DNA of 64,000 bases from Verrucomicrobiia bacterium (lineage in GTDB: Bacteria > Verrucomicrobiota > Verrucomicrobiia > Limisphaerales > UBA11358). Numbering within the stretch: the first letter of the stretch is position 1; every line of letters starts with the position of its first letter. Of this stretch, positions 30,401-51,856 are shown piece by piece. The notes beneath the pieces were generated by a model. The model did not search any database, was not told the origin of the DNA, and saw only the letters and a list, made by a program, of their open reading frames with translations. The position numbers and the translations under genes were made by a program. The stretch covers positions 1 through 64,000 of the forward strand of contig JARLJW010000064.1 of assembly GCA_031290985.1 (NCBI GenBank), in the 5' to 3' direction.

Positions 30401-30654
30401 GGGAAAAGGGGTTCACGTTGAGCGTGGAGGACAACGGCCAGGGGCTGGCGGCGGGCGCGGAGGCGGCGGCGGCCTCCGGGCGGATCTCCTCCGGCTCCGG
30501 CCTGACCAACCTGGAAAAGCGGCTGGCGACCGTGGGCGGGCGGTGCGAGATTCACAGCGCGCCCGGCCAGGGCACGCAAGTGGTGATGACCGTATTCATC
30601 TCCGGCGGGGCATCACCAGTTATGGTGATTGGCGCTGATGAACCGGCGGGTTAG
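27469..30654 (+). CDS. sensor histidine kinase with extracellular propeller (Reg_prop/Y_Y_Y)
   Basis: About 1061 residues from the ATG at 27469 (ATGs at 27472 and 27481 are alternatives). Signal peptide segment ALMAGLLAIFQTLPAAP; then two-component regulator propeller repeats from about 25 to 690 (TPDGYLWVGTYNGLARFDG, and many D-G-x-[IL]-W-x-G-T copies), a Y_Y_Y domain (about 715-775), one transmembrane helix near 805-825, a HisKA_3 dimerisation domain with phospho-acceptor His852 (AKDIHDDIGAG), and a HATPase_c domain (ALNNVVKHARATEVWL, SVEDNGQGL, SGLTNLEKR). Such sensors often detect oligosaccharides in the periplasm. The response regulator gene follows immediately; a palindromic site lies in the last 50 nt of the kinase gene. 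Confidence 0.93.
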   Translation: MMAPMHRRKYPLPRRLFSPAALMAGLLAIFQTLPAAPVDYLVDKWDTEANLPSSTVTSVVQTPDGYLWVGTYNGLARFDGARFVTFDPVDHPELGQARVQGLFLDVTGTLWINTFRGGLTTYRNGEFHNEWPDQPTFDLHTTLVASSSNQVTFVTQYGEVMQRDLTQPDAKWVIFTAPDVRVAFQCADAQGRLWFLTQDKHIMQFAGGSFKVLPDDGGLAGSRIYTVVADAQGKIWAGAENEIARWNGTQFEAMTPTNGAADIQPQSLFPLKSGALWVLDGDRLRKMSGRAWTAEIPSWRGLLGAASGRAMGVHEDRDGGLWFNHYGNGLFHITPDDAGQHLTTAEGLPDVRVGAWYQSRDGGIWAGVDHGGLVRLRDRRFHVVGAASGLGVSTALSVCEDPGGGMWIGTAGGGLCRWTNGVATRFPVGFSASANFVFAIAPRPDGGAWLSAAEGEDLFQYTDSQIRRVSWDVHGIKSLLTDRQGRIWMGTKYGIAFSDGQERRMLGTNNMATRPAVRALVETPDGNVWAGSDDGTIYRCEPDKLTAFRPTDPLSEQPIYSMTADGNGTIWAGTFRGGLLRFRNGVFSRITAKYGLPVDVISQILDDGHGRLWLGTHKGIYCVAKTELNACADGRTNTLDYVTYGQHDGMASVECSEGYQPACWRAADGKLWFTTVRGGAVWVNPNEVTARSEPPPVVIEEMRVDGEPVALTGKKIIVPPGHKQLDFRFTALSFDGGDKARFRYQLDAEWVDVDTLRTLQLRNLLPREYRLHVIACDSQGVWNEKGATVAFAVEPFFYQTPAFKIMAAALLVGGISLGVRRAATRKYRRKLALLQQQHAIERDRARIAKDIHDDIGAGLTQITLLTELARREPEQTNNNLERISDSARTLTKAMDEIVWAVDPQHDTFEGLMDYISAYAEDFLRVAGIRCRMEFPLPLPVLRVDAELRYNLFLALKEALNNVVKHARATEVWLRLQVGEKGFTLSVEDNGQGLAAGAEAAAASGRISSGSGLTNLEKRLATVGGRCEIHSAPGQGTQVVMTVFISGGASPVMVIGADEPAG
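30612..30629 (+). promoter_or_regulatory. palindromic operator site 1 (before the response regulator)
   Basis: ATCACCAGTTATGGTGAT, a perfect 7+7 palindrome with 4-nt spacer, inside the 3' end of the kinase gene and 84 nt upstream of the response-regulator start. It matches the consensus ATCRCCA-N4-TGGYGAT shared with six other sites in the window, with compensating changes in both arms (A and T instead of G and C), which supports a palindromic protein-binding site. The -10-like sequence nearby is weak. Confidence 0.65.
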
Positions 30655-30713
30655 GCTTTTAGCATGATAACCAGCGCCTGAATTTTTCCGGCGCGGGCAA
30701 CCGACATATATTA

Positions 30714-31373
30714 ATGAGCATTTCTGTTTCCATCGTGGAAGACGACGCGCGGGTGCGCGCCAGCCTGGCGCGGCTGATTGACAGCGCGCCGGGTTTTCGT
30801 TGCGTGAGCAATCATTCCAGCGCGGAAGACGCCTTGAAGGAGATTCCCAAGTTCAAGCCGGACGTGGTGCTGATGGACATCAACCTGCCGGGGATCAACG
30901 GCGTGGAATGTGCGCGCCAGCTCAAGCCGCAGTTGCCGGCCACGCAGATCATCATGCTTACGGTGTACCAGAACACGGAGCACATTTTCAACGCCCTGGC
31001 CGCGGGCGCGACCGGCTACATGCTCAAGCAGACGCCGCCGGTGGAGCTGCTGGCCGCGATCAAGGAAGTCAATGCGGGCGGATCGCCGATGAGCGGGCAC
31101 ATCGCCCGGAAGATCGTGCAGTCATTCCAGCAGCCGGTCAATGATTCGCCGGAGGCGCAGAGCCTGTCGCCGCGCGAAGCGGAGGTTTTGGACCTGCTGG
31201 CCAAAGGTTTTCTCTACAAGGAAATTGCGGAGTCCATGAAGGTGACCTACGCGACGGTGCACACGCACATTCGCCACATCTACGAAAAGCTGCACGTGCG
31301 TTCCCGCACGGAAGCGGTGGCGAAGCATTTGAACCAGAATCGTCCGCGGCGTGAGCTGGCTGCCCAGCCGTAA
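30714..31373 (+). CDS. NarL/FixJ-type response regulator
   Basis: 219 residues. Receiver domain (1-120) with acidic pair (EDD at 9-11), phospho-acceptor Asp55 (VVLMDINLPG) and Lys105 (GYMLKQTPP); then a LuxR-type helix-turn-helix (about 150-208, LSPREAEVLDLLAKGFLYKEIAESM and TVHTHIRHIYEKLHVRSRTEAV). NarL-family regulators bind palindromic DNA as dimers. It lies 59 nt after the propeller kinase gene and so is its likely partner. A matching palindrome precedes it and the five genes downstream. Confidence 0.96.
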   Translation: MSISVSIVEDDARVRASLARLIDSAPGFRCVSNHSSAEDALKEIPKFKPDVVLMDINLPGINGVECARQLKPQLPATQIIMLTVYQNTEHIFNALAAGATGYMLKQTPPVELLAAIKEVNAGGSPMSGHIARKIVQSFQQPVNDSPEAQSLSPREAEVLDLLAKGFLYKEIAESMKVTYATVHTHIRHIYEKLHVRSRTEAVAKHLNQNRPRRELAAQP

Positions 31374-31406
31374 GGCATCCTCATAAATCATATTTTTTGA
31401 GGTGCT

Positions 31407-31424
31407 ATCCCCATAACTGGCGAT
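31407..31424 (+). promoter_or_regulatory. palindromic operator site 2 (before giant protein 1)
   Basis: ATCCCCATAACTGGCGAT, consensus match with one deviating base in the left arm. The right half continues TGGCGATGG, and a -10-like TATAGT (31446-31451) follows after 19 nt. The downstream gene starts at 31589. Confidence 0.7.
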
Positions 31425-31588
31425 GGCCGGGGATTTTTTTCATAGTATAGTGATATAAATGCCCACCCAATTTCAGAGCCGCCCGGCTTTACGCCGCAGT
31501 TTGCAGCCGTAGCGCCAAGACGCACCCGGAATTCACACGTCATCCACCGATAATTTATCCAGCCTCCCAATTCAAAGTTTTAATCGTC

Positions 31589-34500
31589 ATGAAATCAACA
31601 ATGCTCTCCATCAAACAAACGAAAATCAGCGGCCTGCTTCTGTTGGCCGGCCTGTTCGCTGCCTGGAATGCCTCGGCGGCCACCGGCATTGATACGTGGA
31701 CCGGCGGGGCCGGGACCGCCAACTGGTCGGACGCGGGCAACTGGTCGGGGGTCAACGCGCCACCGCTGCTCGGCGACACGCCGGTTTTCGGCACGGTGGG
31801 CACGGGCGGAGCCATCCTTAACATGAACCTGGTGACGCCGAACACCAATTTTTTGGGGCTGACGTTCAGCGCGGTCGCGCCGTCGTTTGTGCTCAACGGT
31901 GGCACCATCACTTCCACGGGCGGGATCGTGGACAATTCCACGAATCTGGAGACGGTCAACCTGAACCTTATTTTTGACGCCACCCGGAGTCTCAATGCCG
32001 CGGCCGGCGGCACGCTGCAGATGGGCGGCGTGATTTCGGGTGCGGGCGGGGTCACCAAAAACGGTGGCGGCACCGTGATCCTGACCAATGCAAATACCTA
32101 CACGGGCACAACCGCGGCGAATGCCGGCACGCTGAAGCTTGATTTTAGCGCGGCGGGCGCCCCGGCGTCGAACATCGTCAGAAACACTTCCGTGCTTTCT
32201 TTGGGCGGCGGCACTTACAGCATCAATGGCGCGCCGTCCGTGACCAGCGCGCAGACGAATGCCAGCGTCACTTTTGCCTCGGGGGCCAGCGCCATCACGG
32301 TGGTTTCGGGCGCGTCGGGCACGGCGTATCTGACCTTGGGAGCGATCACGCGCAACAACACCAGCACCATCAAAATCAATGTTCCGTCATCCGGTGCGGT
32401 TTCCACGACCTCGGGCACGGCGAGCACGGTGCTGGTGGGTGGGAATGGCAGCGCAGCGTATGCGTATGTGACGGACAGCAGCGGCAATGTCATGGATTTT
32501 GCGGCGAAGGATTCGGGTAATACTTTCATTGGGGCTGGCGCAACCCAGGCTTCGGCACAGTACAGCTCGCCGACCGGAACTGGTAACATCACCGTCAATG
32601 GGACGTTTGGGACGGCGGTCATGGATATAGTGAATGGGACGGGCATCCGGTTGGGAAATAATGAGAATTTGACAGACGGTATCCGGTTTAATGCGCCGGG
32701 CGCGTGGTTCATTGATACTGCAAGCGCCAACCGTTTGTTAACCACAACGGCATTTCTGGTGACTTTCAATGTCGGACCAAACAATGTGACGCTTTCAGGC
32801 GCTGGTGGCGTGCGTCAACTAACCTCTGGTGGTGACTTGATTTTCATGCAGGACAACACGCTGGGCGAGTTCTTGATGACGGGTGGCGCGATGGCCACCG
32901 GCAGCAGCTCTTCCGCCACCGCGCTGGTCAAGGCGGGCCGTGGAACAATGAATGTTTCCGTGGCCCAGTATTATACCGGCCAGACCTATGTCAACGAAGG
33001 CACCTTGGTGATCAATCAAGATGGCGGCGTGGGTGCCGTGGGCACGGGCGCGCAATTGAACCTCAACGGCGGTACACTGGTGGGGAACGCCAACTTCACG
33101 CTGGACAACGCGGGTGCCAATATCCGGGCCGTGGCCCTGGGCAACAATGGCGGCGGTCTGGCGGCGGCGGCGGGCTTCACGTTGACGGTGGATGGGGTCA
33201 TCGGCGGCGCGGCGGGAACCGGACCGCTGACCATCGGCATTCCGGCCTCGACGTTGAACGGCAACGTGGCGGGATTGGTGCCGGGCACGGGCACGGGCAC
33301 GCCGAACACGGCGATTAATGCTTCCGGCACGGTGATCATCAATGGTGCGAACACGTTTACGGGCGGCGCGGTGCTGCAAAGCGGCACGGTGAACATCAAC
33401 GGCATCAATGCCCTCGGCGGGGCGAACTATGGCGGCCTGACTTTCAATGGCGGCACGTTGCAGTATTCCAACACCCTTTCCAGCGGCAGCGATCTTTCGA
33501 TCAGCAATGGAATCACCGTGTCAGCCGGCGGCGGCACGATTGACCTCAACGGCAACAGCGTCACCTACGCCAATGCGATTGGCGGCGGCGGCAGCGGCGT
33601 GTTGACGGTGGCGAGCACGGCGGGTGGCGGCGGGTTGACGTTGTCGGGCGCCAGCACCTACACGGGCAACACGACCATCAGCGGCGGCAAGCTGGTGCTG
33701 GGGAGCAGCAGTTCGTTGTTGAGCAAAAACATAACTGTGGGCAGCGGTGCGGGCTTGGATGTCTCGGCGTTGTCCTACACGTTGGCCGGCGGCAAAACGT
33801 TGGCCGGCAGCGGCGTGGTGACGGGCAGCGTGACGGCCGCGAGCAGTTCCACCCTCATTCCGGGAACGCTGGGCACGGCCGGCACGTTGAGTTTTTCCAA
33901 CAACCTCACGTTGAGCACGGGTGAAACCAATTACTTTGACCTGTCTTCAACGACCAGTGGTTTGAACGACCGCATTGTGGTGGCGGGCACGCTCAACTTG
34001 AGCGGCACGAAGAGCGTGATTGCGATCAACTTCACGGGCATCCCGAGCGCGGGCAGGTATAAACTGTTCACTTACGGGAGCAAGACCGGCACGGCGGCGG
34101 CCAATCTGACCACGAACACCTTTACCGGGAGCAGCATCGGCACCTTGACGGCGCGCTTGGATGACTCGGTCGCCGGGGAGATTGACCTGCTGCTGACCTC
34201 GGCGCATGTGCCGACGGCCATCACGTGGCTGGGTGACGGCTCGCTCAACAACTGGGACACGACCAGCCTCAACTGGAGCAGCCCCACCAGCAAATATTTT
34301 GACTCGGATTTTGTCACCTTTGATGATTCCGGCTCGGCCAGCCCGGCGATGAATTTGACGACGGCCCTGGCACCGGGTTCGGTGAAGGTCAATGCGGCGC
34401 AAAACTACACGTTCAGCGGTCCCGGCCAGTTGGGCACGGGCAGCTTGACCAAGGACAACTCGGGCACCCTGCTGGTGCTGACCACCAACAGCCTGCCGGG

Positions 34501-37500
34501 GCCGGTGGCGATTCTTAATGGCACCTTGCAACTCGGTGACGGCACCACGTCCGGCACGATCGGTTCCGGCACGATCACCAACGACGCGACGTTCGTGATG
34601 GATTCGCCGACGACGGTGGCGACCGGGCCGGTCATCGGCACCGGGAACACGACGATTGCGACGGGCACGCTGGCCATCGGCGGCAACAGCACATTGAACG
34701 CGCTCACCTTGGGCGCGAGCGGCACGGCGGGCACGCTGGACCTGGCGGGCAGCAGCCTGTTGATTTCCGCGCTGGCCCTGGATCCGTCGGCGGCCGGCGG
34801 CACCATTGGCAACAGCAGCACCACGGCCGCAGCCTTGATCAGCTATGTCGGTGGCAGCTCCACCTACGGCGGGGTGATCCAGGACACCCTGGGTGCGGGC
34901 ACCAAAGCGGTGAGCTTGTTTGTAAATTCCTCCGGCACGCTGCAATTGAACAGCGCGAATCCCTTCAGCGGCGGCACGGTGATCAACAGCGGCACGGTGG
35001 CGCTGGGTTCGACGGCGGCCACGCTCGGAACGGGCGCGATCACGCTGACCAACGGGAGCATCTTGTCCTTGTGGTCAGGCAACAGCGGCGACCAGGGCAC
35101 GACTTCGCCCGGTAATCTGGCCAACGCCTTGATCATCCCCGCCGGCCACAACGCGACGATCTGGGATGCCGCCCGCGGCACGTTGAGCAGTTCGTTGACC
35201 GGCGGCGGCACGCTGGACCTGCGGGTCAACGGTGTGCGCGGCGATGTGAGCGGCAACTGGAACGCCTTCAACGGCGTGGTCAATGTGACTTCCCGGACGG
35301 GATCGAGCGACGATTTCCGGGTGGCGATCGGGGGCACAACGGACAACTCCTACGCGAATCTTAAAATGAACCTGGGACCCGGCGTGCATATGTATCAGAG
35401 CGTCAATCCGCCGACGGGGTCCGGAACGGAAACCAAGCACAACATTGGTGAGCTGAGCGGTGATGCCGCGTCAACCGTCGGTGGCAACCCGGTGGGCGGC
35501 CGCTTTGCCGACTGGTCGGTGGGCGGGTTGAACACGTCCGTGTCGTATGATGGCAGCATTGTTGACAACACGGGGCAAACCCGCATCAACAAGGTGGGCA
35601 CGGGCAACTGGATCTTGAACGGTGCCAGCACCCACTCGGGGGCGACGTGGATCGTGGGCGGCACGTTGACGGTGAACGGCTCTTTCAGCGCCAGCCCGTT
35701 GACCAATTACGCCTCCGGAACACTGGCGGGCTCGGGCACGCTGTTTGTGGTGGATCTGGAGGCCGGCAGCACCGTTTCACCCGGCGTGGGCGGCGTGGGC
35801 ACCCTGGCGTGCGGCAGTGATTTGACCTTCAACGGCGGCACCAATGTGGTGGATATCGTCAGCGGGGGCGGAAATGATTTGATCACGGTGGGGGGCAACT
35901 TGAACCTCACCGCCGGAGCTGTCCGGTTGGTTGTGAGCGGCACGTTGCCCAACGGCACGTATCAGTTGATCACCTATGGCGGATCCTTGAGCGGCGGGGT
36001 CGCGAATCTCAGCCTGAGCGGCTTTGCGCAACCCGGCCAGACGGCCCGCCTGTCGGACACCACGCCCAATGAAATTGACCTGGTGGTGGAAACGCCCGCG
36101 CCCAAAGATCTGGTCTGGGGCGGCGCGAACGCGGCGGATGCGCTTTGGAACATCGCCAGCTCGGTCAACTGGAGCAACGCCCCCGGCCCCGGGCTGACGA
36201 TCTTCAACAACAGCGACAGCGTCACCTTCGACGACTGGTCCCCGGGCAACACCACCATTGATGTGCGGGCGGCGGTCCAGCCTTCGGCCATCATGGTCAC
36301 GGGTGCGCAAACTTATGTTTTCGGCACCACGACGGCGGGCAGGTTTTCCGGCGCGACGAACAGCCTGATTTTGAAAGGCACCGCGACCGTGGAGCTGGAC
36401 ATGGTGAATGACTATGGCGGGCCGACGACCATCGGCAGCGGGAACACGCTGACGGTTGGCAACGGCCCCATCTCCGCCAGCCTTGGCAGCGGCCTGATCA
36501 CCAACAACGGCGTGCTGGTCTTCAACCAGACGAACAATCTCGCGCTCACCAACATCGTGGGCACCGGGAGCCTGACCAAGAACGGCAACGGCACGCTGAC
36601 GCTTACGGGGACCAACGCCTACACGGGTGCCACGACCATCGGCACCGGCTCGACCCTCCAGGTGGGCACGGGCGGCGCGACCGGCGGGTTGCTGGGCAGC
36701 GTGACGGATGATGGCACCTTGCTCATGAACCAGTCCGGCAACGTGATCCTGAACAACCCCATCAGCGGCACGGGCATATTCACCCAGAATGGCACCTCGG
36801 TGATGACGATGAACGTGGCCAATACGTACCAAGGCAACACCTTTATCAACCATGGCGTGCTGAAATTGGGCGCCAATGATGTGATTCCGGATGCCGTTTC
36901 AGCTCCCGGGAGCACTGGCTGGTTGATTCTGGATGGTAATGCCACCAATGCAGGCACGCTGGACTTGAACGGGTTCAATGAGACGGTCAATGTGTTGCAA
37001 GGCCTGAGCAACACGGTTCTGGGTGACATCACCAACAGCGCCGCGAGCGGCACGAGCACGTTGACGTTCGGCAATGATTTTAACACCGCCATCAACGGCT
37101 ACTCCGGCCTGATCACGGAGAATCCGGCGGGTGGCAAGATTGCGCTGATCAAGCAGGGCATCAGCACGAACATCTTGACCGGGGCCAACAGCTACAGCGG
37201 GGGAACCATCGTAAAGGGTGGCGCCCTGATCCTGGGCAACGGCACGGCGGCCGGCAGCGGTTCCATCACCTTGAGCAACGGGGTGGTTTTGGGTTTGCAA
37301 CAACTCGGCAGCAGTTCCATTTTTGTGGGCAACAGCATCATCACCGGAGCGGGGATGGCGGCCACGCTGACGAATGTGCCGACCCAGGTGGGCAATGCGT
37401 TTAGCGGCCTCTTTTTCTCCGGCGATACGGACAGCAGCAACATCATCGCCAGCTCCATTTCCTTCAACAGCGCCGCCGTGAAGCAATTCCAAGGATTCAA

Positions 37501-38569
37501 CGGCACGGTGCAGGTCGCGACGACTGGCGGATTGCGTTTCTCCGCCTCCGCGCTGGGAACCAACGGTGGCGACAATACGACCTTTGACATCCAGGGCACG
37601 ATCAACACCCGCAACGGCTCGTCGGCCGGTCCCGGGGTCTCGCTCGGGGCGCTGACGGGTTCCGGTTTCCTGACGGGCGGGGCGAATGCCGCCGGCCCGA
37701 GCACTTACATCATCGGCGCCAAGGGGATTGATTCCAGCTTTTCCGGAACGATCCAGGACAGCGGCAATGGCAATGTCGGCATCGTGAAAACCGGTGCGGG
37801 CAAGCTGACCTTGAGCGGCACGGTCAGTTATACGGGCAACACCACCGTGAACAACGGCACGCTGGCCCTGGTGGAACCGGTGTCGCTCGACAGCAGCCCG
37901 ACCCTCACCCTGGGCGGCAGCGCGGCGGTCCTTGATGTTTCAGGGCGGGCGGACGGGACGTTGAACCTCGGCCTGGCCAAGGTGCAAGCCTTGAACGGCA
38001 TCGGCACCATCACCGGCAGCCTGCTGGAGGCGGCGAATTCCTCGGTGCGCGTTGGTCTGGGGACGTTGACGGTGTCCACGGCGGCGACTTTCAATGGCGG
38101 TCTGACGGTGCAGGTGAACCGGACGAATGCGATCACGCATGGCGAAGTGGTTTCGCCGAGCATCACGGTGACGGGACCGTTGACGGTGTCGAACATCGGT
38201 CCGGCGCTGCAGGGCGGCGACACGTTCCAGTTGTTCAACTCGGCGGTGACGGGTTTCTCGGCCACGAACCTGCCGGCGCTGACGGGTGCGATGTACTGGA
38301 CCAACACGCTGGCCGTGGACGGCCGCATCGCGGTGATCAACCCGGTGAACACCAACGCGCCGCCGATCCAAACGGTGGTCAACGGCACGACGCTGACGTT
38401 GAGCTGGCCGACGAATTCGGGCTGGACGCTCCAGATGCAGACGAACAGCCTGGCGACGGGCCTGGGCACGAACTGGGTGGATTACATCCCGGGCAGCACG
38501 GGCGTCACCACCACGAACATCACGCTGGATCCGGCCAAGCCGACGGTGTTTTTCCGCCTGAAGCTCTGA
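31589..38569 (+). CDS. giant secreted autotransporter-associated beta-strand-repeat protein 1
   Basis: 2326 residues. Signal peptide (about 1-31, LLLLAGLFAAWNASA), then a TWTGGAGTANWSDAGNW-type start and dozens of beta-strand repeats such as GSLTKNGNGTLTLTGTNAYTGATTI and VKAGRGTMNVSVAQYYTG, the typical right-handed beta-helix pattern of autotransporter-associated repeats. Composition is dominated by Gly, Thr, Asn and Ser with few charges. There is no C-terminal beta-barrel; instead it ends in a module shared with the next gene (LSWPTNSGWTLQMQTNSLATGLGTNW, then VFFRLKL). Probably a surface or extracellular fibre-like protein; ligand unknown. An own palindromic site precedes it and a strong terminator follows. 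Confidence 0.9.
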   Translation: MKSTMLSIKQTKISGLLLLAGLFAAWNASAATGIDTWTGGAGTANWSDAGNWSGVNAPPLLGDTPVFGTVGTGGAILNMNLVTPNTNFLGLTFSAVAPSFVLNGGTITSTGGIVDNSTNLETVNLNLIFDATRSLNAAAGGTLQMGGVISGAGGVTKNGGGTVILTNANTYTGTTAANAGTLKLDFSAAGAPASNIVRNTSVLSLGGGTYSINGAPSVTSAQTNASVTFASGASAITVVSGASGTAYLTLGAITRNNTSTIKINVPSSGAVSTTSGTASTVLVGGNGSAAYAYVTDSSGNVMDFAAKDSGNTFIGAGATQASAQYSSPTGTGNITVNGTFGTAVMDIVNGTGIRLGNNENLTDGIRFNAPGAWFIDTASANRLLTTTAFLVTFNVGPNNVTLSGAGGVRQLTSGGDLIFMQDNTLGEFLMTGGAMATGSSSSATALVKAGRGTMNVSVAQYYTGQTYVNEGTLVINQDGGVGAVGTGAQLNLNGGTLVGNANFTLDNAGANIRAVALGNNGGGLAAAAGFTLTVDGVIGGAAGTGPLTIGIPASTLNGNVAGLVPGTGTGTPNTAINASGTVIINGANTFTGGAVLQSGTVNINGINALGGANYGGLTFNGGTLQYSNTLSSGSDLSISNGITVSAGGGTIDLNGNSVTYANAIGGGGSGVLTVASTAGGGGLTLSGASTYTGNTTISGGKLVLGSSSSLLSKNITVGSGAGLDVSALSYTLAGGKTLAGSGVVTGSVTAASSSTLIPGTLGTAGTLSFSNNLTLSTGETNYFDLSSTTSGLNDRIVVAGTLNLSGTKSVIAINFTGIPSAGRYKLFTYGSKTGTAAANLTTNTFTGSSIGTLTARLDDSVAGEIDLLLTSAHVPTAITWLGDGSLNNWDTTSLNWSSPTSKYFDSDFVTFDDSGSASPAMNLTTALAPGSVKVNAAQNYTFSGPGQLGTGSLTKDNSGTLLVLTTNSLPGPVAILNGTLQLGDGTTSGTIGSGTITNDATFVMDSPTTVATGPVIGTGNTTIATGTLAIGGNSTLNALTLGASGTAGTLDLAGSSLLISALALDPSAAGGTIGNSSTTAAALISYVGGSSTYGGVIQDTLGAGTKAVSLFVNSSGTLQLNSANPFSGGTVINSGTVALGSTAATLGTGAITLTNGSILSLWSGNSGDQGTTSPGNLANALIIPAGHNATIWDAARGTLSSSLTGGGTLDLRVNGVRGDVSGNWNAFNGVVNVTSRTGSSDDFRVAIGGTTDNSYANLKMNLGPGVHMYQSVNPPTGSGTETKHNIGELSGDAASTVGGNPVGGRFADWSVGGLNTSVSYDGSIVDNTGQTRINKVGTGNWILNGASTHSGATWIVGGTLTVNGSFSASPLTNYASGTLAGSGTLFVVDLEAGSTVSPGVGGVGTLACGSDLTFNGGTNVVDIVSGGGNDLITVGGNLNLTAGAVRLVVSGTLPNGTYQLITYGGSLSGGVANLSLSGFAQPGQTARLSDTTPNEIDLVVETPAPKDLVWGGANAADALWNIASSVNWSNAPGPGLTIFNNSDSVTFDDWSPGNTTIDVRAAVQPSAIMVTGAQTYVFGTTTAGRFSGATNSLILKGTATVELDMVNDYGGPTTIGSGNTLTVGNGPISASLGSGLITNNGVLVFNQTNNLALTNIVGTGSLTKNGNGTLTLTGTNAYTGATTIGTGSTLQVGTGGATGGLLGSVTDDGTLLMNQSGNVILNNPISGTGIFTQNGTSVMTMNVANTYQGNTFINHGVLKLGANDVIPDAVSAPGSTGWLILDGNATNAGTLDLNGFNETVNVLQGLSNTVLGDITNSAASGTSTLTFGNDFNTAINGYSGLITENPAGGKIALIKQGISTNILTGANSYSGGTIVKGGALILGNGTAAGSGSITLSNGVVLGLQQLGSSSIFVGNSIITGAGMAATLTNVPTQVGNAFSGLFFSGDTDSSNIIASSISFNSAAVKQFQGFNGTVQVATTGGLRFSASALGTNGGDNTTFDIQGTINTRNGSSAGPGVSLGALTGSGFLTGGANAAGPSTYIIGAKGIDSSFSGTIQDSGNGNVGIVKTGAGKLTLSGTVSYTGNTTVNNGTLALVEPVSLDSSPTLTLGGSAAVLDVSGRADGTLNLGLAKVQALNGIGTITGSLLEAANSSVRVGLGTLTVSTAATFNGGLTVQVNRTNAITHGEVVSPSITVTGPLTVSNIGPALQGGDTFQLFNSAVTGFSATNLPALTGAMYWTNTLAVDGRIAVINPVNTNAPPIQTVVNGTTLTLSWPTNSGWTLQMQTNSLATGLGTNWVDYIPGSTGVTTTNITLDPAKPTVFFRLKL

Positions 38570-38704: not shown

Positions 38705-38722
38705 ATCGCCAGAACTGGCGAT
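38705..38722 (+). promoter_or_regulatory. palindromic operator site 3 (before giant protein 2)
   Basis: ATCGCCAGAACTGGCGAT, both arms exact. The right half extends TGGCGATGG, and a -10-like TAATAA (38741-38746) follows after 16 nt. Confidence 0.75.
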
Positions 38723-38812
38723 GGTAAGAATTTAAGGATGTAATAAGCTCCTGAGAACACCCTTAGTTTGAAACCCGACAACACTCATTTGTCTTTTCCA
38801 AACCCAACCCAG

Positions 38813-41800: not shown

Positions 41801-44251
41801 GGGGGTGACAACACCACCTTCGAGTTCGACTCCGGCAACGTTCATACGCGCGATGCGCAGACGGTGTCGCTGGGTTCGATCCGGGGCGGCAGCAGCACCT
41901 GCGGCATCAGCGGCAATGGCACGGCGGGCACGGTAGCCACCTGGGCCATCGGCGCGAAGAACCAGAACGACTTCTTTGAGGGGTACATCAACCTCAGCAA
42001 CAATCTGGTGAAGACCGGCACCGGCACGCTGCAACTGTACGGCGTGGCGGTGGTCACAAACACGGACAATGCCACTTTTACCAACTACCTGTTCACACCG
42101 GTGATCAATTATCTGGGCTACACGACGGTGAGCAACGGGGTGCTGCGGGTGGTGGCGCCCAACCAGCTGACGAACTGCACCTCGATCACCCTGGCCGCGG
42201 TCGGCACGGTGCTGGATGCCTCGCAGATGGGCTATGTCAGCAACCAGCTCAGCGTGGATGACAACGTGACGCCCACCAATTCGTATGTCGTGACGAACGG
42301 CATTTTGGTGGTGCCGGCATCCACTTTCGCCGGCATACCCCAGACCCTGGCCGGCTTCGGCACGGTGAAGGGCAACGGCGTGATCAGCTACGGCACGATC
42401 AATCCGGGCAACGCCACCGCGGGCGGCACGTTGAGCATTTCCAACGGCCTGACCATCCATGCGGGGGCGACGAATTATTTCGACCTGTCCGACGACCTCA
42501 CCGGTCTGGTCAAGGCCAGCGACCTGATCAATGTCCAGGGCAATGTGACGCTGGCGGGCGCGAGCGTCGTCGGCATCGGCGCCTTGAACGGCGTGGTGAA
42601 GGCGGGCAAATATACGCTGATCAAATACTCGGGCAATCTCATCAATGAAAGCGGCATCGTGCCGCCCGGCCCGGTGGCGAACCTTTCGCTGGGCGGGCTG
42701 TTTACCGCCACGTCGCGCGCGACGATGGTGTTGAGCAACGCGCCGGGCGAACTGGACCTGGTGGTGGTGAGCCTGAACAGCAAGAACCTGACGTGGTCGG
42801 GCGATGGCGTGAGCAACCTGTGGGACGTGGTGAACAGCTACACCTTCACGAACAACGGCGCGCCGATCCAGTTCTACCAGCTCGACCTGGTGACGTTTGA
42901 CGACAGCGCCACCAACTACAATGCGCTGCTGGCGGGCACGGTGGTGCCGAGCAGCCTCACGGTGAACACGGCCACCAACTACTCATTCGGCGGCTCGGGC
43001 AACATTGGCGGCACGGTCACGTTGTTCAAGACGGGCACCGGCTCCTTGTTGCTGACGAACGGGGCGAACAGCTTCACCGGCGGCGTGGTGATCAGCAACG
43101 GGCTGGTGAGCGTGGGCGCGGACAGCGGAGGGAACCAAAACGACCTCGGGCTGGGCACGGGCCCGGTGACGGTCAGCACGGCCGGCGCGGAATTGCGGTT
43201 CGGCGGCAACGGGGGCTCGACGGTGGTGAATCACTTCGTCACCAACGCCATCATCCTCAACGGCGGCATGGTCAAGGCGCAGGACGGCGCGCAGCACCTG
43301 ACGAACTCCACGGTGACGGTGGCGGCTGGCGGGGGCACGCTGGCGACGGTGTACTCGACGAAGAACCTGGTGCTGGATTCGCCGCTCCTGGGCACGGGCA
43401 ATGTGATCATCTCGGCGGTGCCGGCGGGAACGAACGTCGCGGCGGGCGCGGTGGTCTTGAACAACCCGGCCAACTTGTTCAGCGGCACCATCAACATCAT
43501 CACGAATGCGACGCTTACGCTGAGCGGTTGGGCCGGGGTTTCCAACAGCCCGAGCATCAACATCCAACAGGGCGGCATCTTGGATGTGACCGGACGGACG
43601 AACGCGTTTACGACCCTGGTAGCCGGCCAGACCCTCATGGGGAATGGCGTGCTGCGCGGCAACCTGACCGCCGCCAGCGGCTCGACCATCGCCCCGGGCG
43701 CGGCGGCGGCGACCATCGGCACGCTGACGGCGAATTCCGCGAAGACCACGATCACCCTGGGCGGCACCGTGGTGATGGACATCAACCGGGGCGCAACGCC
43801 AAACAGCGACCGATTCGTTTCCGTCACCAATATATTTGGCGGCACGCTGACGGTGAACAACCTCGGCACGCCGCCGTTATTGGGTGACTCTTTCACGCTG
43901 TTCACCAGCGTGACGAACCTCGGCGCGTTTGCCGTGACCAACCTGCCGGCGTTGTCCAACGGCTTGGGCTGGAGCAATTCGCTCGTGCTCAACGGCAAGC
44001 TGACGGTCATCGCGGTCACGACGGTAAACACCAACGCGTTCACGCTCACGAACAGTGTGAGCGGCAATGTGCTGACGCTCTCCTGGCCGGTGGATCACAT
44101 CGGCTACCGCCTGCTGGTGCAGACCAATTCCCTGGCGAATGGTCTGGGCACCAACTGGGTGACGGTGCCCGGCTCGACCAACGTGAGCACCGCCAGCTTC
44201 ACCATCAACCCGACCAACGGCACCGTGTTTTACCGGATGATTTATCCGTAA
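38813..44251 (+). CDS. giant secreted autotransporter-associated beta-strand-repeat protein 2
   Basis: About 1812 residues from ATG 38813 (ATG 38822 equally possible; a TTG at 38768 would extend it). The N-terminus has a signal-like stretch (AMTAAASLTAALHVEAAS) followed by TWTNAPVSGSWSNVLNW. It consists of beta-strand repeats (GSLVKVNAGTLFLNTVNTYSGGTVISNG and similar) and ends in the same C-terminal module as protein 1 (LSWPVDHIGYRLLVQTNSLANGLGTNW, then VFYRMIYP). It is a tandem paralogue of the upstream gene and, like it, lacks a translocator barrel. Own palindromic site and terminator. Confidence 0.9.
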   Translation: MPTMNTNLDCPTAPRNQPPQRIRQFLQAMTAAASLTAALHVEAASQTWTNAPVSGSWSNVLNWVAKAAPGDINNSTANTVNSDIVTINSPITGGIGGAGNPIVPDDATVNGARSRRVCGIVFDTTNCGAYVIASPSPTLLYTADNPATGILFVCHNTGTNAQGLPLGSIRINDSVTNSQKVIVPLYVSLPSSTAGIYNLVNNSTNPGVTLTINSITHDGATSRGTVFVLDGTNTAPNVVTNLSEGPSAATGTGGGGITKQGPNTWIITGPGTFLGSSTINVINGLLIVRDPAAFGTALTTPINVSSLGTLQIDGVSLNQNAVTLGASGTVRMNGSGTLNGITVSNILSTTATNATTSATDVETLGNALNRVTGGAVSSVLHFTGPGTILMDYANNFAGRYSLDSGTNQLSDPGALGAAANYNLNAGAVLDVTPLTTGSGTYTFTPKAISANGTGTGVGTTASTVYLDPSGIFDFGSKAMNLTYAPAATNGDLTHPVIYAPQGNLNFNGNSITVVNASAQPLNAGTYTIVKQASGTATSSGAFVTIVTGSGLAPGMVGEIVAAGGSLNLLVYAYTPKSLVWTGTDPLLPATWDRQVSTNFLNGATPSVFNIYDSALFNATGIGQPVVTLAFTLVPGGVTVDTTAGNYTFAGSGQIAGGTSLVKVNAGTLFLNTVNTYSGGTVISNGVIQVGIDNAIPSTGLGDVTNASPAVLDLNGHQDTIGALDGNGTVDTTGGNATLSVGGNDNNGTFSGLLTNSTGTLNLTKVGLGTQVLTRSNTYAGTTDIELGVLKPLDPLGLGGGASALVINGGTLDLATNLIVPSLAGTGGSIANLSTTATNILTVLAPATTSYAGSIVSGAGKVGLRLLGGSLRMTGANTYTNGTFIGSGATFQIHNSPAAVAGPLIASNTATLGLSGGSTSPGTPATVTTVDGATVTFTSGAEGETWGGQFLGSASATNRFTSAVSIGGVASFSNFLGVVQIALASGNFRFFNGAGVSGGDNTTFEFDSGNVHTRDAQTVSLGSIRGGSSTCGISGNGTAGTVATWAIGAKNQNDFFEGYINLSNNLVKTGTGTLQLYGVAVVTNTDNATFTNYLFTPVINYLGYTTVSNGVLRVVAPNQLTNCTSITLAAVGTVLDASQMGYVSNQLSVDDNVTPTNSYVVTNGILVVPASTFAGIPQTLAGFGTVKGNGVISYGTINPGNATAGGTLSISNGLTIHAGATNYFDLSDDLTGLVKASDLINVQGNVTLAGASVVGIGALNGVVKAGKYTLIKYSGNLINESGIVPPGPVANLSLGGLFTATSRATMVLSNAPGELDLVVVSLNSKNLTWSGDGVSNLWDVVNSYTFTNNGAPIQFYQLDLVTFDDSATNYNALLAGTVVPSSLTVNTATNYSFGGSGNIGGTVTLFKTGTGSLLLTNGANSFTGGVVISNGLVSVGADSGGNQNDLGLGTGPVTVSTAGAELRFGGNGGSTVVNHFVTNAIILNGGMVKAQDGAQHLTNSTVTVAAGGGTLATVYSTKNLVLDSPLLGTGNVIISAVPAGTNVAAGAVVLNNPANLFSGTINIITNATLTLSGWAGVSNSPSINIQQGGILDVTGRTNAFTTLVAGQTLMGNGVLRGNLTAASGSTIAPGAAAATIGTLTANSAKTTITLGGTVVMDINRGATPNSDRFVSVTNIFGGTLTVNNLGTPPLLGDSFTLFTSVTNLGAFAVTNLPALSNGLGWSNSLVLNGKLTVIAVTTVNTNAFTLTNSVSGNVLTLSWPVDHIGYRLLVQTNSLANGLGTNWVTVPGSTNVSTASFTINPTNGTVFYRMIYP

Positions 44252-44358: not shown

Positions 44359-44376
44359 GTCGCCATAATTGGCGAT
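44359..44376 (+). promoter_or_regulatory. palindromic operator site 4 (before pseudopilin 1)
   Basis: GTCGCCATAATTGGCGAT, one base off in the outermost position. A -10-like TATATT (44398-44403) follows the extended right half-site after 19 nt. The gene starts at 44462. Confidence 0.72.
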
Positions 44377-44461
44377 ACCCAGATAGAAATAAGCACGTAT
44401 ATTTATCACAACGCCCATTTTAACTGATTTAAGCACCAGTCGCTTTTTTAAACGAATACAT

Positions 44462-45298
44462 ATGCCAAAGATTAATTCATCGCGCTCGAGCCGGTCTCAG
44501 TCCGGCTTTACCCTGATTGAACTGCTGGTGGTCATTGCCATCATTGCCATTTTGGCGGCGATGTTGTTGCCGGCGCTGGCCAGTGCCAAGGAGCGGGCCA
44601 ACCGCACCCAATGTGTCAACAACCTGCGGCAACTTGGGCTGGGCTACGCCATGTATGCCGGGGACAGCCAGGATAATTATCCCGTCACGCAGGCGGGTGC
44701 AAACGGAGTAAATGTCATCAAGGGGGGGTATTACACCCGCTGGATTGCTTATGGACCCGGCCTCGTTAATATCAAGGTGGACCCTAACAATACGACCATT
44801 AAATTTACTGACTTTGGTTCCCTGCTGCCTGCAAAATTCGCCGGGGCGGGAAAAGTTTTTTATTGCCCGAGTTTGAATGCAAAAAACTCCGTCTTGGGAT
44901 CTATGTATTACGAGCCAATCCTGACATTCAAGGATTCCGTGCCGCCCGATGGAAATGGGAATGTTCGCGGCAGCTACTTGTGCAATCCCCGGGTAGATGA
45001 CCCGACAGCCAGCAGTCCCAAGCGAAAATACCAAAAGTCCAGCGGTGTTAAAGGCCGGGTTCTGTTCGGCATGGATTTTATTGATTACACCCAGTTCGAT
45101 ACTGCGGGCAATGTTTTGGTAACGGGGGATGATTTTGCGCACAGCCGCAGCAAAGGCTGGAACGTGTTGTTCAGTGATGGCAGCGTATCTTTTGGTAAAA
45201 ATCTCGCCGCGGCCAAGGCGGCCTATGTGGCGGGTGGTTTCCCGAGCCAATATGATGTCAAGGGAATCAACCAACTCGCCGATGCGCTGGAGCAGTAA
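44462..45298 (+). CDS. pseudopilin with H-X9-DG signature 1
   Basis: 278 residues. Prepilin-type N-terminus ([30 protein letters not shown]) with the peptidase cleavage site before F and the Glu at +5, followed by the conserved [17 protein letters not shown]. The C-terminal [16 protein letters not shown] fits the H-X9-DG signature. These proteins are processed by a prepilin peptidase, retain the hydrophobic helix and are very numerous in Verrucomicrobiota/Planctomycetota; the actual function is unclear. No secretion or pilus machinery is next to it. Confidence 0.92.
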
Positions 45299-45374: not shown

Positions 45375-45392
45375 ATCGCCAGAATTGGCGAT
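45375..45392 (+). promoter_or_regulatory. palindromic operator site 5 (before the kelch-like protein)
   Basis: ATCGCCAGAATTGGCGAT, perfect arms and a fully palindromic centre AATT. A -10-like CATAAA (45415-45420) follows the extended right half-site after 20 nt. Gene start at 45563, leaving a long leader. Confidence 0.75.
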
Positions 45393-45562
45393 GGTCAATG
45401 ATTTGGCAAAGTCGCATAAAGGATTTCTTCACAGGTGAAAAGCCAGACAACAGGGCGGCTTGATGCGCAGGGGTTCAATGGCGCAAAAGGGGAGGGTGTT
45501 ATGGAATGCAAACGGTTTTCTCACCGATCAACTTAATGGAATGACATCAAAGGAAAAAATGC

Positions 45563-47452
45563 ATGAAAACATTCATCAATATCATTCGCTGGTTCCTGTT
45601 TATAACCATGGCAACCGCTGCATCATCGACGCTGACGGCGCAAACGTTCAACCCCTATTGGGAAGATCTTTCCAATGGTCCGTATGGCTGGTTTTTGGGG
45701 TGCGATGATAATAACATTTATTCTGCAGGGCCTGGTGATGGCATTACAACAGGCCTTGCCAAGTGGAATGCGTGTGGCGGTTCAGTGAGCATCGGCATAT
45801 TTTACGGTGACTTGTATAGCATAACTAAAAAAGGTCATTATCTGTATGCTGCCGGGCAATTTTCGAGCGTGCAGTGGGGCGTAGGACAGGAGATTGCGGC
45901 CACCAATATTGCGAGATGTGATTTAACCACGGGGGAATGGAGTGATTTGGGTTTTACAGGAGCGCTCCCTGATGGTGGCAACAGGGAAATCGACTCGGTT
46001 ACCGTTGATGCTCACAACAATGTTTATGTCGGAACGTTCTTCAGCGAGGTGACTCCGAGCGGCGTAGATCCAGATATGATAATGAAGTATGATGGGACAA
46101 GCTGGTCGGGCCTCGGAGGAGGGTTGCTGCGTTACCAGGGCCCGCTTGACCAGGAATGTACAATTCGCCAATTAGTAACGGATGGCACTAACATATTTGC
46201 ATATGGGGCGTTTATTGGTGGTTCCAATGGAACGACCTTTGTCCGTTCCCCTTTACTGATCAAATGGGATGGAGCCGAATGGTGTTCGATGGGTGGTTTG
46301 AGTGAAATTGGTTTGAACTATCAGCCAATCGACGGCTATTACGATATTTCTTCCACGGCTGCACTGGCTGTCCTGGGGACCAATTTATTTGTGGCCGGCA
46401 ATTTTATCAGTGTTTTCGATGTAGCGAACGGTTACGCGATTTCGAACAACGTCGGGCTTGCCAGATTCTCAACCCTGTCGGGAGCGCTTTTGCCCTGCGA
46501 TAGCTTAAGTTTGCAAAATAATGGAAATAATTATGGAATTGGCAAATGCTTGGTTGTGCATGATGGCACGGTTTATGTGGGCGGACGATTTGACGCAGTT
46601 AATTCAACCAATGCATATGGAATCGCCGAATGGGTTCCGGGCGGTCCGCATTGGTCATCAGTCGGAGGAGGGGTAACCTATCAAGGTAACCCGGCACAGG
46701 TTTCTGCATTGGCAGCAAACGGCAATGCAGTTTTCGCCGAAGGTCTAATCGATTCGGCAGGAACCGTGGCGCTCGGTTATCAGGACCCTGCCCGCTGGGT
46801 GACCGCGCCGGACCCTGATTGTACCCCGGTTTTGAGCAATGATAATTTGGCAGATGGAAGTTATTCATTTGATATCGCAGGGCCCCCGGGGACTGCTTGG
46901 ACGGTTTATCGGTCAGTTGATTCGAGCGAGAATCCGATAGGAACCGTATGGGAATCCATCGGCACTGCAATGTTGTTTGCCGGCACGGCGACGTTTACGG
47001 ATGATTCCTTTGGAGCAAATACCAAGTGCTACTACAAAGTCGCGCCCATCGGTGGCAATTCCGATACGGAGCCAAATTCAAACAAGATCGGGTTTAACTT
47101 TGTCACCATACCCGCTTATGGGAATGGCGAGTATCCGCTTTGGGTGACCAATTCATTTTCCTATCCGGATTCTTCGGTAGACGCGGTGATTCCGATAAGC
47201 GCTTTTTCGGGTGCAGATCCAAGTGAACTGATCAATTACGGTCTGATATTTGATATTGCAAATCCAATACCAGGAGTCACCGACTGGGATGTTTATAATC
47301 AGGGAGACGGCTGGTTTTTTTGTGAGGAATGGGCCACACATCTTCCGGACGAGTCTGCCGGGTCCTTGACATTTAATGCTGGCGACAGCCTGCTGTTTTG
47401 GAACGGGGTTGGTTCAGATTTAACCCTTGTTCTCCATGGTCTGGTTCCATGA
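45563..47452 (+). CDS. secreted kelch/propeller-like protein
   Basis: 629 residues. Signal peptide (MKTFINIIRWFLFITMATAASSTLTA). The central region (about 30-430) has repeats such as NIARCDLTTGEWSDLGFTGALPDGG, MIMKYDGTSWSGLGGGLL, LIKWDGAEWCSMGGL and YVGGRFDAVNSTNAYGIAEWVPGGPHWSSVGGGV, which resemble a beta-propeller with one W-x-x-[LMV]-G-G/GG turn per blade. The C-terminal region is a fibronectin-like segment (SYSFDIAGPPGTAWTVYRSVD, then TKCYYKVAPIGGNSD). Markedly more AT-rich than its neighbours, so probably acquired, though it carries the same operator and terminator arrangement. No name assigned. Confidence 0.8.
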   Translation: MKTFINIIRWFLFITMATAASSTLTAQTFNPYWEDLSNGPYGWFLGCDDNNIYSAGPGDGITTGLAKWNACGGSVSIGIFYGDLYSITKKGHYLYAAGQFSSVQWGVGQEIAATNIARCDLTTGEWSDLGFTGALPDGGNREIDSVTVDAHNNVYVGTFFSEVTPSGVDPDMIMKYDGTSWSGLGGGLLRYQGPLDQECTIRQLVTDGTNIFAYGAFIGGSNGTTFVRSPLLIKWDGAEWCSMGGLSEIGLNYQPIDGYYDISSTAALAVLGTNLFVAGNFISVFDVANGYAISNNVGLARFSTLSGALLPCDSLSLQNNGNNYGIGKCLVVHDGTVYVGGRFDAVNSTNAYGIAEWVPGGPHWSSVGGGVTYQGNPAQVSALAANGNAVFAEGLIDSAGTVALGYQDPARWVTAPDPDCTPVLSNDNLADGSYSFDIAGPPGTAWTVYRSVDSSENPIGTVWESIGTAMLFAGTATFTDDSFGANTKCYYKVAPIGGNSDTEPNSNKIGFNFVTIPAYGNGEYPLWVTNSFSYPDSSVDAVIPISAFSGADPSELINYGLIFDIANPIPGVTDWDVYNQGDGWFFCEEWATHLPDESAGSLTFNAGDSLLFWNGVGSDLTLVLHGLVP

Positions 47453-47546: not shown

Positions 47547-47564
47547 GTAGCCAGAATTGGCGAT
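47547..47564 (+). promoter_or_regulatory. palindromic operator site 6 (before pseudopilin 2)
   Basis: GTAGCCAGAATTGGCGAT, right arm exact and left arm with two outer deviations. A -10-like TATATG (47585-47590) follows the extended right half-site after 18 nt; its overlap with the ATG at 47588 argues that translation starts further on, at 47609. Confidence 0.68.
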
Positions 47565-47608
47565 GGTGAAGGAACCGGCGGCGTTATATGTTCAGGGAAG
47601 AAACACCC

Positions 47609-48511
<903 letters not shown>

Positions 48512-48525
48512 AATCATTGCCAAGC

Positions 48526-49026: not shown

Positions 49027-49060
49027 AGGTGAATCAAGGTGAATCAAGGTAGATCAAGGT
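49021..49060. repeat. four tandem ATCAAGGT decads
   Basis: Units GGATCAAGGT, GAATCAAGGT, GAATCAAGGT, AGATCAAGGT. A second group of three units lies at 49319-49348. Confidence 0.85.
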
Positions 49061-49440: not shown

Positions 49441-49515
49441 TGGCGGCAGGATGCCGCCTGAACCCGCAGGCAGGATGCGGGTGCTACGACGGGGGCGCAG
49501 GCGCGGAGGATCAAG
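49441..49515. repeat. GGCGGCAGGATGCC cassette, copy 2
   Basis: Second copy of the cassette described at 48954-49026, about 490 nt downstream in the same orientation. Confidence 0.75.
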
Positions 49516-50208
49516 GGTCCGTGCCGGACGGGCCATTTTGTCACAGCGCGACCAGTGCCACCAGCAATGGGTCAAACCGGGGTGGGATCAATCAGTGAAT
49601 CAGTGAGTTTTTGGCAAAGGCTGCGAGCACGAAGCGGATTGATGGGCAGTGAGAACGAAGCCAAAACGAAGCCAATTTTCGGGGCTGCAGGAGGGGCTTT
49701 GGCGGATGGGTGAAATATGGTAACTTGCTTGTAGTTAATGTGTTATAATATTTTTTGGCGCAACGTGTGGGCTGGGCGCGGGCAGGGAAAAATTACAGAA
49801 CGAAGCCAATTTAAAAGTGGCGGGTGACGGGTGGCGGGTGACGCGTGGTGGCCGTTCGCGAGAGGCATTCGTGTTGGCCCATTCTGGCTAGGATTGGCCC
49901 CGGCAGGGCGCTTCATTTCTGTGCGCCGTCGCGGCGGGCAGGACTGCTGCTTTGAGACAATTTGTCAGCAAAACAAAGGCGGGTTGAAAAACGGCCCGGT
50001 TTGGTGTTCGGGCAAGAGTGATTTTGAGCCCCACCTGTCCCCGTCCATAGCCGCTGTCGCTGCTCCCCCATTTCATGGCGGAGAGGGGGCCAGAGGTGTC
50101 AGGTTTAAGAAAGGTTGCTGCAGAGCAGCAGGAAAGCCTGCCCGGCTTGGCACCGGGCCAATATTAAATTGAACTGCGATAATCTTCCGGGCGACCGGCG
50201 GGCTGATT

Positions 50209-51714
50209 TCAAGCCGCGCTGTCTTTGGCTTCGAGCTTTTGCCAGACGAGGCCGTAGAGGGCGATGAAGACAAAGCACACGAGCGGGACGACGAAGCCGG
50301 TACGCATCGAATGCGTGTCGGCGAGGTGGCCCATGAACGGGGCCGCGATTGCGCCACCGACGATGGACATGACGATGAGGGAGGCGCCCAGTTTGGTGTG
50401 ATCGCCCAGGCCGCGGATGCTGAGCGCAAAGATGGTCGGGAACATGACGGACATGAAGAAGAAGGTGCCAAACATGGCATAGAGGCCGAGCTTGCCACCG
50501 CCCATGCATACCGCCGTGAGCGCGACGTTGATGATGGCGTAGGTGGCCAGCACGAGGTTCGGCTTGAACTGGCTGATGACCGCGCTGCCGCAGGCGCGGC
50601 CGGTCGCGAACAAAACGAAACCGATGGCACCCAGCATATTGGCGGCTTTGGCCGGCGTTACAGCGGGGTCGTTCTCGATGATGTAATTGACGCAGAAGCT
50701 GAAAATGCCGGTCTGGGCGGCGACGTAAAGGAATTGCGTGACCACGCCGAGGGTAAAATGTTTGCGCCGGAACATGTCCCAATTTTTTGAAACCACGATG
50801 AACGAGGCGAGGTAGGCGGCCACGATCAAGCCGTATTTGGTGGGGTCCAGCAAATTGGCCGGCAGATCGACCAGCACCCAAACGAGCCCCAAAATCGGGG
50901 CGATAAAGAAATACAACAGGCCCCAGACCAGCAACAAGGCGATGCCAATGCCAGCATACTGGCCGCCGGAAGGTTTCAGGGCGGTTTTTTGACTGGCGAC
51001 TTTCTGGCTTTCATCCTCGGCGTGTAAATCGGGCACGGGTCCGAAAATAAAAACGACCAGCAGCACCGCGGCCAAAATGCCGATCCCCAAGTAGGGGGTG
51101 GACAGGCCGGCGTTGGCATTGGTGGCCGAAGCGGCGGCGCCGGCGGCGCTTGAGCCACCGCCATGTTCTCCGAAAACGAAGTAGCCACCCACGATGGGGC
51201 CCAAAATCCAGCCCAGGCCGTTGAAGGTTTGAGCGATGTTGATGCGCGTCGCACCGTGTTCGGGTGCGCCCAGCACGGTGGTGTATGGATTGGCGATGGT
51301 TTCCAGGCAGGTCATGCCGGCGGCGATGACGAACAAGCCCAGCAGAAACGCTGAGTAGGTGCCGAGGCTGGTGGCATGAATGAACCAAAATGAGCCGGCG
51401 GCAATCAAGGACAACCCGACGAGGATGCCGCCCTTGTAACCGAGCTTGCGGGCGATCAAGCCGGCGGGGATGGCCATGAGGAAGTAGGCCAGGTAGTTGG
51501 CCGATTGCACGAGGCCGGACTGTTGCTTGTTGATATGCAACGAGTCCTGGAAATGTTTGTTCAGGATGTCAATCATCCCGTTGCAGAAGCCCCAAAGCAG
51601 GAAGAGCGAGGTGACGAGGGCAAAGGTGACGAACAGGTTTCGGCCATCCGGCAGTCGGAACAAGCCGCCGCCTTGGGAGCCGGAGGAACGGGAGGTGGGA
51701 ACAGGTGCAATCAT
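50209..51714 (-). CDS. FHS-family sugar:H+ symporter (FucP-like MFS)
   Basis: 501 residues from the ATG at 51712-51714 (an upstream in-frame Met would add an 18-residue polar extension). Twelve transmembrane helices. The FHS pattern appears in LFLLWGFCNGMIDILNKHFQDSL, SANYLAYFLMAIPAGLIARKLGYKGGI and ANPYTTVLGAPEHGATRINIAQTFNGLGWILGP, as in the fucose permease. A long central cytoplasmic loop carries the Lys/Glu-rich ESQKVASQK segment. Next to pectin-degrading genes, it is likely to import a monosaccharide such as rhamnose, fucose or galactose. It is divergent from GH106 with a shared operator between them. Confidence 0.88.
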   Translation of the reverse strand: MIAPVPTSRSSGSQGGGLFRLPDGRNLFVTFALVTSLFLLWGFCNGMIDILNKHFQDSLHINKQQSGLVQSANYLAYFLMAIPAGLIARKLGYKGGILVGLSLIAAGSFWFIHATSLGTYSAFLLGLFVIAAGMTCLETIANPYTTVLGAPEHGATRINIAQTFNGLGWILGPIVGGYFVFGEHGGGSSAAGAAASATNANAGLSTPYLGIGILAAVLLVVFIFGPVPDLHAEDESQKVASQKTALKPSGGQYAGIGIALLLVWGLLYFFIAPILGLVWVLVDLPANLLDPTKYGLIVAAYLASFIVVSKNWDMFRRKHFTLGVVTQFLYVAAQTGIFSFCVNYIIENDPAVTPAKAANMLGAIGFVLFATGRACGSAVISQFKPNLVLATYAIINVALTAVCMGGGKLGLYAMFGTFFFMSVMFPTIFALSIRGLGDHTKLGASLIVMSIVGGAIAAPFMGHLADTHSMRTGFVVPLVCFVFIALYGLVWQKLEAKDSAA

Positions 51715-51838
51715 GTTTTGGTGGAGTTGTTCCCTGAAGTCTTGGGAAAAGGCGGCGCAGGTCAAGTTTCAACTGTTAACGGAGGGTTAAACAAACGTTC
51801 TATTTCTGTACCGGCTTTGGGGTGGCTTGCCGGGTGGC

Positions 51839-51856
51839 ATCGCCAGAAATTGCGAT
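51839..51856 (+). promoter_or_regulatory. palindromic operator site 7 (symporter/GH106 divergent region)
   Basis: ATCGCCAGAAATTGCGAT, left arm exact, right arm with one deviation (TTGCGAT). It lies 46 nt before the GH106 start at 51903 and 124 nt before the divergently oriented symporter start. No clear -10 at the spacing seen in the other sites. Confidence 0.6.

Follow-up and report, generated by a model that had tools for sequence, protein, structure and literature searches.

Response regulators of the NarL/FixJ (LuxR-type) family, such as NarL, VraR and DevR, combine a receiver domain with a GerE helix-turn-helix and bind palindromic sites. Class II activators typically bind at a spacing that is fixed to the base; at the class II promoter that LuxR activates through the lux box, for example, the palindrome is centred near -42 and overlaps the -35 element. 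Here we analysed a window of 64,000 nucleotides from a Verrucomicrobiia bacterium (GenBank assembly GCA_031290985.1, contig JARLJW010000064.1, positions 1 to 64,000; part of contig C23 of a 5.98-Mb assembly that we call G000), in which copies of an 18-bp palindrome, ATCRCCA-N4-TGGYGAT, lie around the gene of a NarL-type response regulator (RR; 30714..31373, + strand). We consider it very probable that these palindromes are operators of this RR and that it acts through them as a class II activator of genes for PATR repeat proteins, of pseudopilin genes and of its own gene.

The components are of known kinds; what is new is a self-promoter overprinted on the gene of the adjoining kinase, the set of targets, and a difference in operator between two RR clades. 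Compared with described NarL/FixJ regulators, the palindrome (7-4-7) and the targets are different and the self-promoter lies over a kinase stop codon; compared with class II lux-box promoters, the transcription starts here are predicted only and an operator can sit within coding sequence. The Reg_prop periplasmic part of the kinase is also known from hybrid two-component systems of Bacteroides. Those of Bacteroides polysaccharide loci likewise place a sensor kinase beside carbohydrate genes (PMC11253607). Unlike these hybrid systems, the kinase (27346..30654, +) and the RR are encoded by separate open reading frames (ORFs) rather than as one polypeptide, and the DNA-binding domain is of GerE rather than AraC type. 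Literature searches on class II lux boxes, overlap of a stop codon with a -10 element and verrucomicrobial small RNAs found no paper, and among the papers that other searches listed, none by title and abstract described control of verrucomicrobial PATR giants or DUF1559 pseudopilins.

Palindromes and predicted promoter geometry

The kinase carries a Reg_prop propeller and Y_Y_Y, HisKA_3 and HATPase_c domains, and begins with TTG in the mechanically listed ORF. The RR contains a receiver (Response_reg, 90.4 bits against a cut-off of 30.2) and a GerE domain (63.3 bits against 23.5), its phosphoacceptor Asp aligns with that of NarL (VLMD in the RR, ILLD in NarL), and NarL is its best match in the PDB (E = 2.3e-31). 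No NCBIfam equivalog cut-off was reached among the best 25 of 107 families.

A sequence-only reading of this DNA had proposed seven palindrome copies as the sites of a regulon, and we found all seven where it had placed them. Three copies match exactly (30612, 38705 and 45375), three contain one mismatch (31407, 44359 and 51839) and one contains two (47547). Allowing up to one mismatch, 6 matches occur in the window where 0.05 would be expected, and none of 100 shuffles reaches 6; at up to three mismatches the excess is weak (18 against 10.6 expected; 1 of 100 shuffles reaches 18). The palindromes in the window are real and not a product of chance.

Five of the seven are followed at 21-22 nt by a -10-like hexamer of the form TANNNT; this corrects the sequence-only reading, which had given five copies a -10-like hexamer 16-20 nt past the extended right half. 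All on the + strand, these are predicted operator 1 of the RR gene (30612..30629; predicted -10 TAGGCT at 30652..30657), operator 2 (31407..31424; TATAGT at 31446-31451), operator 3 (38705..38722; TAAGCT at 38744-38749), operator 4 (44359..44376; TATATT at 44398-44403) and operator 6 (47547..47564; TATGTT at 47587-47592). Operator 5 (45375..45392, +) has only CATAAA at 22 nt (45415-45420), which gives weak support to its proposed role as a class II site. The seventh copy, an imperfect palindrome between the symporter and GH106 genes (51839..51856, +), has no -10 at 21-22 nt, and because of this we rejected it as a class II target and regard it as a doubtful member of the set. Two other readings of the sites were discarded: a reversed orientation of the 30612 copy, because its -10 lies on the same side as at the other sites, and a transcribed RNA element of the target genes, because the palindrome lies upstream of the -10.

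To describe the spacing across related genomes, we collected 126 site-orientations at a score of at most 2 and excluded 42 that lay deep within ORFs and 33 with no gene downstream, leaving 51. TANNNT begins exactly 21 nt past the palindrome in 26 of these 51 intergenic site-orientations, and any other of 62 offsets holds at most 5; leaving out two loci that had been chosen from earlier hits, the count is 24 of 49. The deep-in-ORF set contains 4 hexamers at offset 21 and the window sites at 38705 and 44359 are absent from the 51, so true sites are lost through this filter. Across the 26 promoters the consensus, ATCnCCAGAACTGGCGATGG-N19-TATATT, has no good -35 hexamer. Assuming the usual 6-7 nt from the -10 element to the start, the palindrome would be centred at about -41.5 to -42.5, with its right arm overlapping the -35 region. 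The class II arrangement that had been read from the window alone, in which the site overlaps the -35 and a constant interval separates it from the -10 downstream, is therefore borne out in related genomes by the fixed TANNNT offset. CCC begins 8-11 nt past the hexamer in 18 of the 26 target promoters as opposed to 3 of 42 coding controls. A CCC-containing leader also follows operators 2-4 in the window (near 31452, 38750 and 44404) and occurs in relatives.

By analogy with NarL-type regulators, a signal would lead the propeller kinase to pass phosphate to the RR, and a dimer of the phosphorylated RR would bind ATCRCCA-N4-TGGYGAT about 42 bp upstream of the predicted start, over a degenerate -35, and recruit RNA polymerase as a class II activator. 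The targets would be PATR giants and DUF1559 pseudopilins, in the cluster and elsewhere, as well as the RR gene itself through the operator and -10 on the last codons and stop of the kinase; with the RR gene among its own targets, positive feedback would be expected. A palindrome over the -35 at a fixed distance from the -10 would also fit an RR that binds and represses, its dimer blocking polymerase until a signal frees it. We consider repression improbable, as the lack of a good -35 in the consensus suggests promoters that need an activator, and spacing fixed to the base is usual for class II activators.

Linkage of the sites to one regulator clade

To determine whether the palindrome accompanies this RR, we gathered 26 orthologue loci at 76% identity or more, comprising 15 same-genus relatives from a search of 59 genomes, 10 public loci and the window; the public genome collection had yielded 24 loci at 76-89%, 14 of them contigs already in the set. 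These relatives are mostly metagenome assemblies of Verrucomicrobia subdivision 3 / Limisphaerales. Sites were accepted at a score of at most 1.5, counting mismatches, with half a mismatch charged for a G-to-A change at arm position 4 or a C-to-T change at position 15. Such a site was present no more than 1 kb from the RR gene in 24 of the 26 orthologues; none of 58 RRs at 48-68% identity had one, and shuffled regions gave 0.0 of 26. The 26 cluster together (SH-aLRT 87) when 117 RR rows are placed in one tree, and the two lacking a site fall in different places. Nine of the ten loci fetched after this rule had been formed obey it.

We then scanned the assembly for the motif, a check that the sequence-only reading had suggested. 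The bare palindrome proved unspecific, with 71 places at up to two mismatches in 5.98 Mb, and 12 of 18 places viewed in context outside the cluster were flagged as inside ORFs; it was dropped as a regulon finder, and the palindrome together with its -10 was used instead. This composite pattern (palindrome, N21 and TANNNT, up to one mismatch) was searched in 36 genomes. It occurs at four places in this assembly, three in the window cluster and one before a pseudopilin gene, and was found in 11 of 11 congeners that bear the RR, 2 of 12 congeners that lack it and 0 of 13 genomes of other families.

Nineteen composite places lie on contigs that bear no RR, and 14 of these were viewed in context. 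Seven of the 14 precede PATR giants or pseudopilins, in agreement with the proposed link between regulator and sites. PATR proteins follow five of them (L233, L235, L241, L242 and L244, with L242 and L244 just under the Pfam cut-off), and pseudopilins follow two: L252, on contig C94 of this assembly, by Pfam match, and L226, on contig C13 of G010, by the FTLIELLVV signature only. A further place (L230) precedes a look-alike with no Pfam match in the available part, L251 is the site facing that of L230, and L246 precedes a GH2 enzyme. In G018 (L229) a site that shares its contig with the RR, at a distance of 28 kb, stands ahead of another PATR gene. This assembly also has a weaker site (C88, L022) ahead of a similar-looking protein without a Pfam match. 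Together with the cluster, these genes offer a testable regulon for the giant PATR proteins and DUF1559 pseudopilins of Verrucomicrobia.

Several observations weigh against the assignment of these palindromes to the RR as class II operators. In the window, the -10 is weak at 45375 and missing from its expected distance at 51839. Among the orthologues, G019 has the RR and no operator in the kinase tail, where a TTGG/TAAATT promoter is kept and the palindrome is absent, and retains a single weaker site, with TATATT, ahead of a 2782-aa protein; all that L163 has is a decayed palindrome. The clade of L169, L170 and L255 has the recognition helix of the window RR with no site near L169 or L170, so that the helix alone is not supported as a predictor of the site. 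G014 (75% complete) contains four composite matches and no RR orthologue was found in it; RR-lacking G013 has one composite match, with a poorly fitting hexamer. No coherent target follows four of the 14 off-contig places (L225, L237, L240 and L253). Some orthologue loci are near-duplicates (L164/G034, L158/G008 and L147/L148), so the independent cases are fewer than 26.

Some of these cases would suit a different transcription factor, encoded elsewhere, that binds the palindromes and merely counts the RR gene among its targets: L169 and L170 share the helix without sites, G014 has sites where the RR was not found, and the assembly holds at least 51 NarL-type candidates. We give this a slightly lower probability than repression, as the presence of the site tracks this RR clade and a sister RR clade has a palindrome of its own beside its own gene.

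A predicted promoter over the kinase stop codon

The sequence-only reading had each copy precede a separate transcription unit. The copy at 30612, ahead of the RR gene, is not in a spacer and lies inside the 3' end of the kinase ORF; that this copy and its -10 are overprinted on the last codons and stop of the kinase had been missed. The operator occupies the same place in 24 of the 26 orthologue loci, and in all 24 it precedes TANNNT by 22 nt. Positions T1, A2 and T6 of the hexamer are constant in 24 of 24, and the kinase stop codon forms its first three bases in 23 of 24, as in the window. Where the stop lies within the hexamer it is TAA or TAG (23 of 23); among 435 background frames, 213 close with TGA. 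T stands as the third base past the stop in 24 of 24 relatives and in 135 of the 435. The background consists of stop-to-stop frames of at least 300 codons on both strands, some of them spurious. All 24 loci use CCA for the proline codon within the operator (background 16%), a constancy that is in part circular, since a palindrome match was what brought a locus into the set.

Across these loci the kinase tail is constant in length and differs in its distal residues; palindrome and hexamer do not change, and tails reading SPKLAM, SPILAI and SPVVVI all keep the palindrome. At L160 the kinase ends before the operator, through a frameshift or an assembly error, and operator and hexamer persist. 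Of the kinases viewed beside distant RRs, most end shortly past the last HATPase strand, without such a tail. With the hexamer on the kinase stop in 23 of 24 and the 22-nt spacing in 24 of 24, the RR gene is most likely served by a promoter of its own that depends on the RR and is overprinted on the 3' end of the kinase gene, as predicted from these alignments. Here operator, -10 element and stop codon share bases, which makes the locus a compact case of overprinting. That the 30612 copy is no operator and only a by-product of a conserved tail peptide, SPVVAIG, is very unlikely: the peptide is similar in most orthologues and the circularity of the CCA count allows for it, but the stop-codon type and the third base past the stop are constant without having been part of the choice of loci, the palindrome outlasts changes in a tail of fixed length, and L160 keeps site and hexamer past the end of its kinase, subject to the possible assembly error.

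Sister clade and neighbouring genes

We next compared a sister clade of RRs, whose recognition helix reads YETVHTYIRR where that of the window clade reads YATVHTHIRH, a difference at positions 180, 185 and 188. We viewed 34 loci, two of which belong to other clades, and in 17 of the 32 sister loci found palindromes of GTAACCA-, GTCACCA- or GTCCCCA- type followed by TANNNT at 22 nt. The window RR is, within this assembly, the best match to a sister RR (63%), the others reaching at most 59%. That helix and palindrome change as a pair is an argument for binding of the site by the RR. Together with the linkage counts, this pairing supports the connection between regulator and site that the sequence-only reading had put forward; the binding is deduced from sequence. 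NarL-type specificity would be easier to read from sequence with the help of two such clades, which use different palindromes within a single promoter layout.

No consistent gene lies downstream of the sister palindromes; they are followed by a conserved stretch of 80-171 nt that ends in an intrinsic terminator and is predicted to be a small RNA. Searches against Rfam at gathering scores gave no match in the window and only tRNAs in 12 of the 17 loci with the RNA beside the RR. We built an alignment and covariance model from 16 of the 17 sequences, leaving out L267, and obtained matches in 44 of 59 genomes at E <= 0.001. Only the terminator hairpin is base-paired in the model, and in 2 of 16 sequences one of its pairs has changed on both sides. 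The model thus depends largely on sequence, and its weakest matches may be terminators alone. Among 23 further matches viewed, a palindrome with at least 6 of 7 arm pairs stands just upstream in 17. One copy lies in the window itself: a sister-type palindrome, GTCCCCAGTACTGGGGAC (GTCCCCA-N4-TGGGGAC; 23905..23922, +), with TAAGCT at 23945-23950, is followed by a predicted small RNA (23951..24038, +) with an intrinsic terminator at 24006-24038. This is a related element and does not stand under operators 1-6. Two more copies occur in the assembly (contig C102, 17227-17312; contig C43, 1452-1535).

GacA-type regulators activate small RNAs, and the sister clade resembles them in pairing a NarL-type RR with palindromes upstream of short, terminator-ended RNAs; the operator and the RNA differ. 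Tentatively, the propeller-kinase/NarL pairs of this order may be a paralogous family with a code from recognition helix to operator on one class II layout, in which one clade would control PATR giants, pseudopilins and itself through a promoter at the kinase stop, the sister clade would control a multi-copy small RNA absent from Rfam, and the kinase tail would exist mainly because the operator is translated through. A NarL-type RR query finds 82 places in assembly G000 at E <= 0.001, some through the receiver domain alone. This large paralogous set offers further ground on which to test the operator rule.

The genes behind operators 2-6 all lie on the + strand. Two encode PATR repeat proteins, of 2326 aa (31589..38569; Pfam PATR E = 8e-31) and 1827 aa (38768..44251; E = 3.9e-12), which finish in similar aromatic-rich tails (FFRLKL and FYRMIYP) that are possibly a C-terminal sorting signal. 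Two are DUF1559 pseudopilins by family match (44462..45298 and 47588..48511); translation of the second more likely starts at an internal ATG 3' of the predicted promoter. Between them lies a 629-aa protein with no family assigned (45563..47452). It had been called kelch-like, a description that we could not support: there is no Pfam match at 0.001 and no PDB relative at E <= 1, and a Rax2 propeller model matches below threshold (E = 0.0099).

Downstream of the cluster follow a gene for a FucP-like symporter and one for a GH106 alpha-L-rhamnosidase. Positions 50209-63152 hold these two clustered with genes for GH28, three GDSL esterases, GH53 and GH2, a grouping that looks like one for the use of pectin (rhamnogalacturonan/galactan). 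In relatives, weak sites adjoin RhaT genes (G020 and G022), a GH106 gene (G015) and an arabinofuranosidase-like/GDSL pair (G018); none of these has TANNNT at 21-22 nt, so a rhamnose or pectin link is a hint only. The adjoining symporter, GH106, GH28, GDSL, GH53 and GH2 genes hint at a pectic polysaccharide as the signal, though 51839 lacks the promoter spacing. In a verrucomicrobial isolate, a pseudopilin is reported among the genes over-expressed on alginate, along with 67 homologues of a PulG-like pseudopilin (PMC13274419), which fits substrate-dependent control of such genes.

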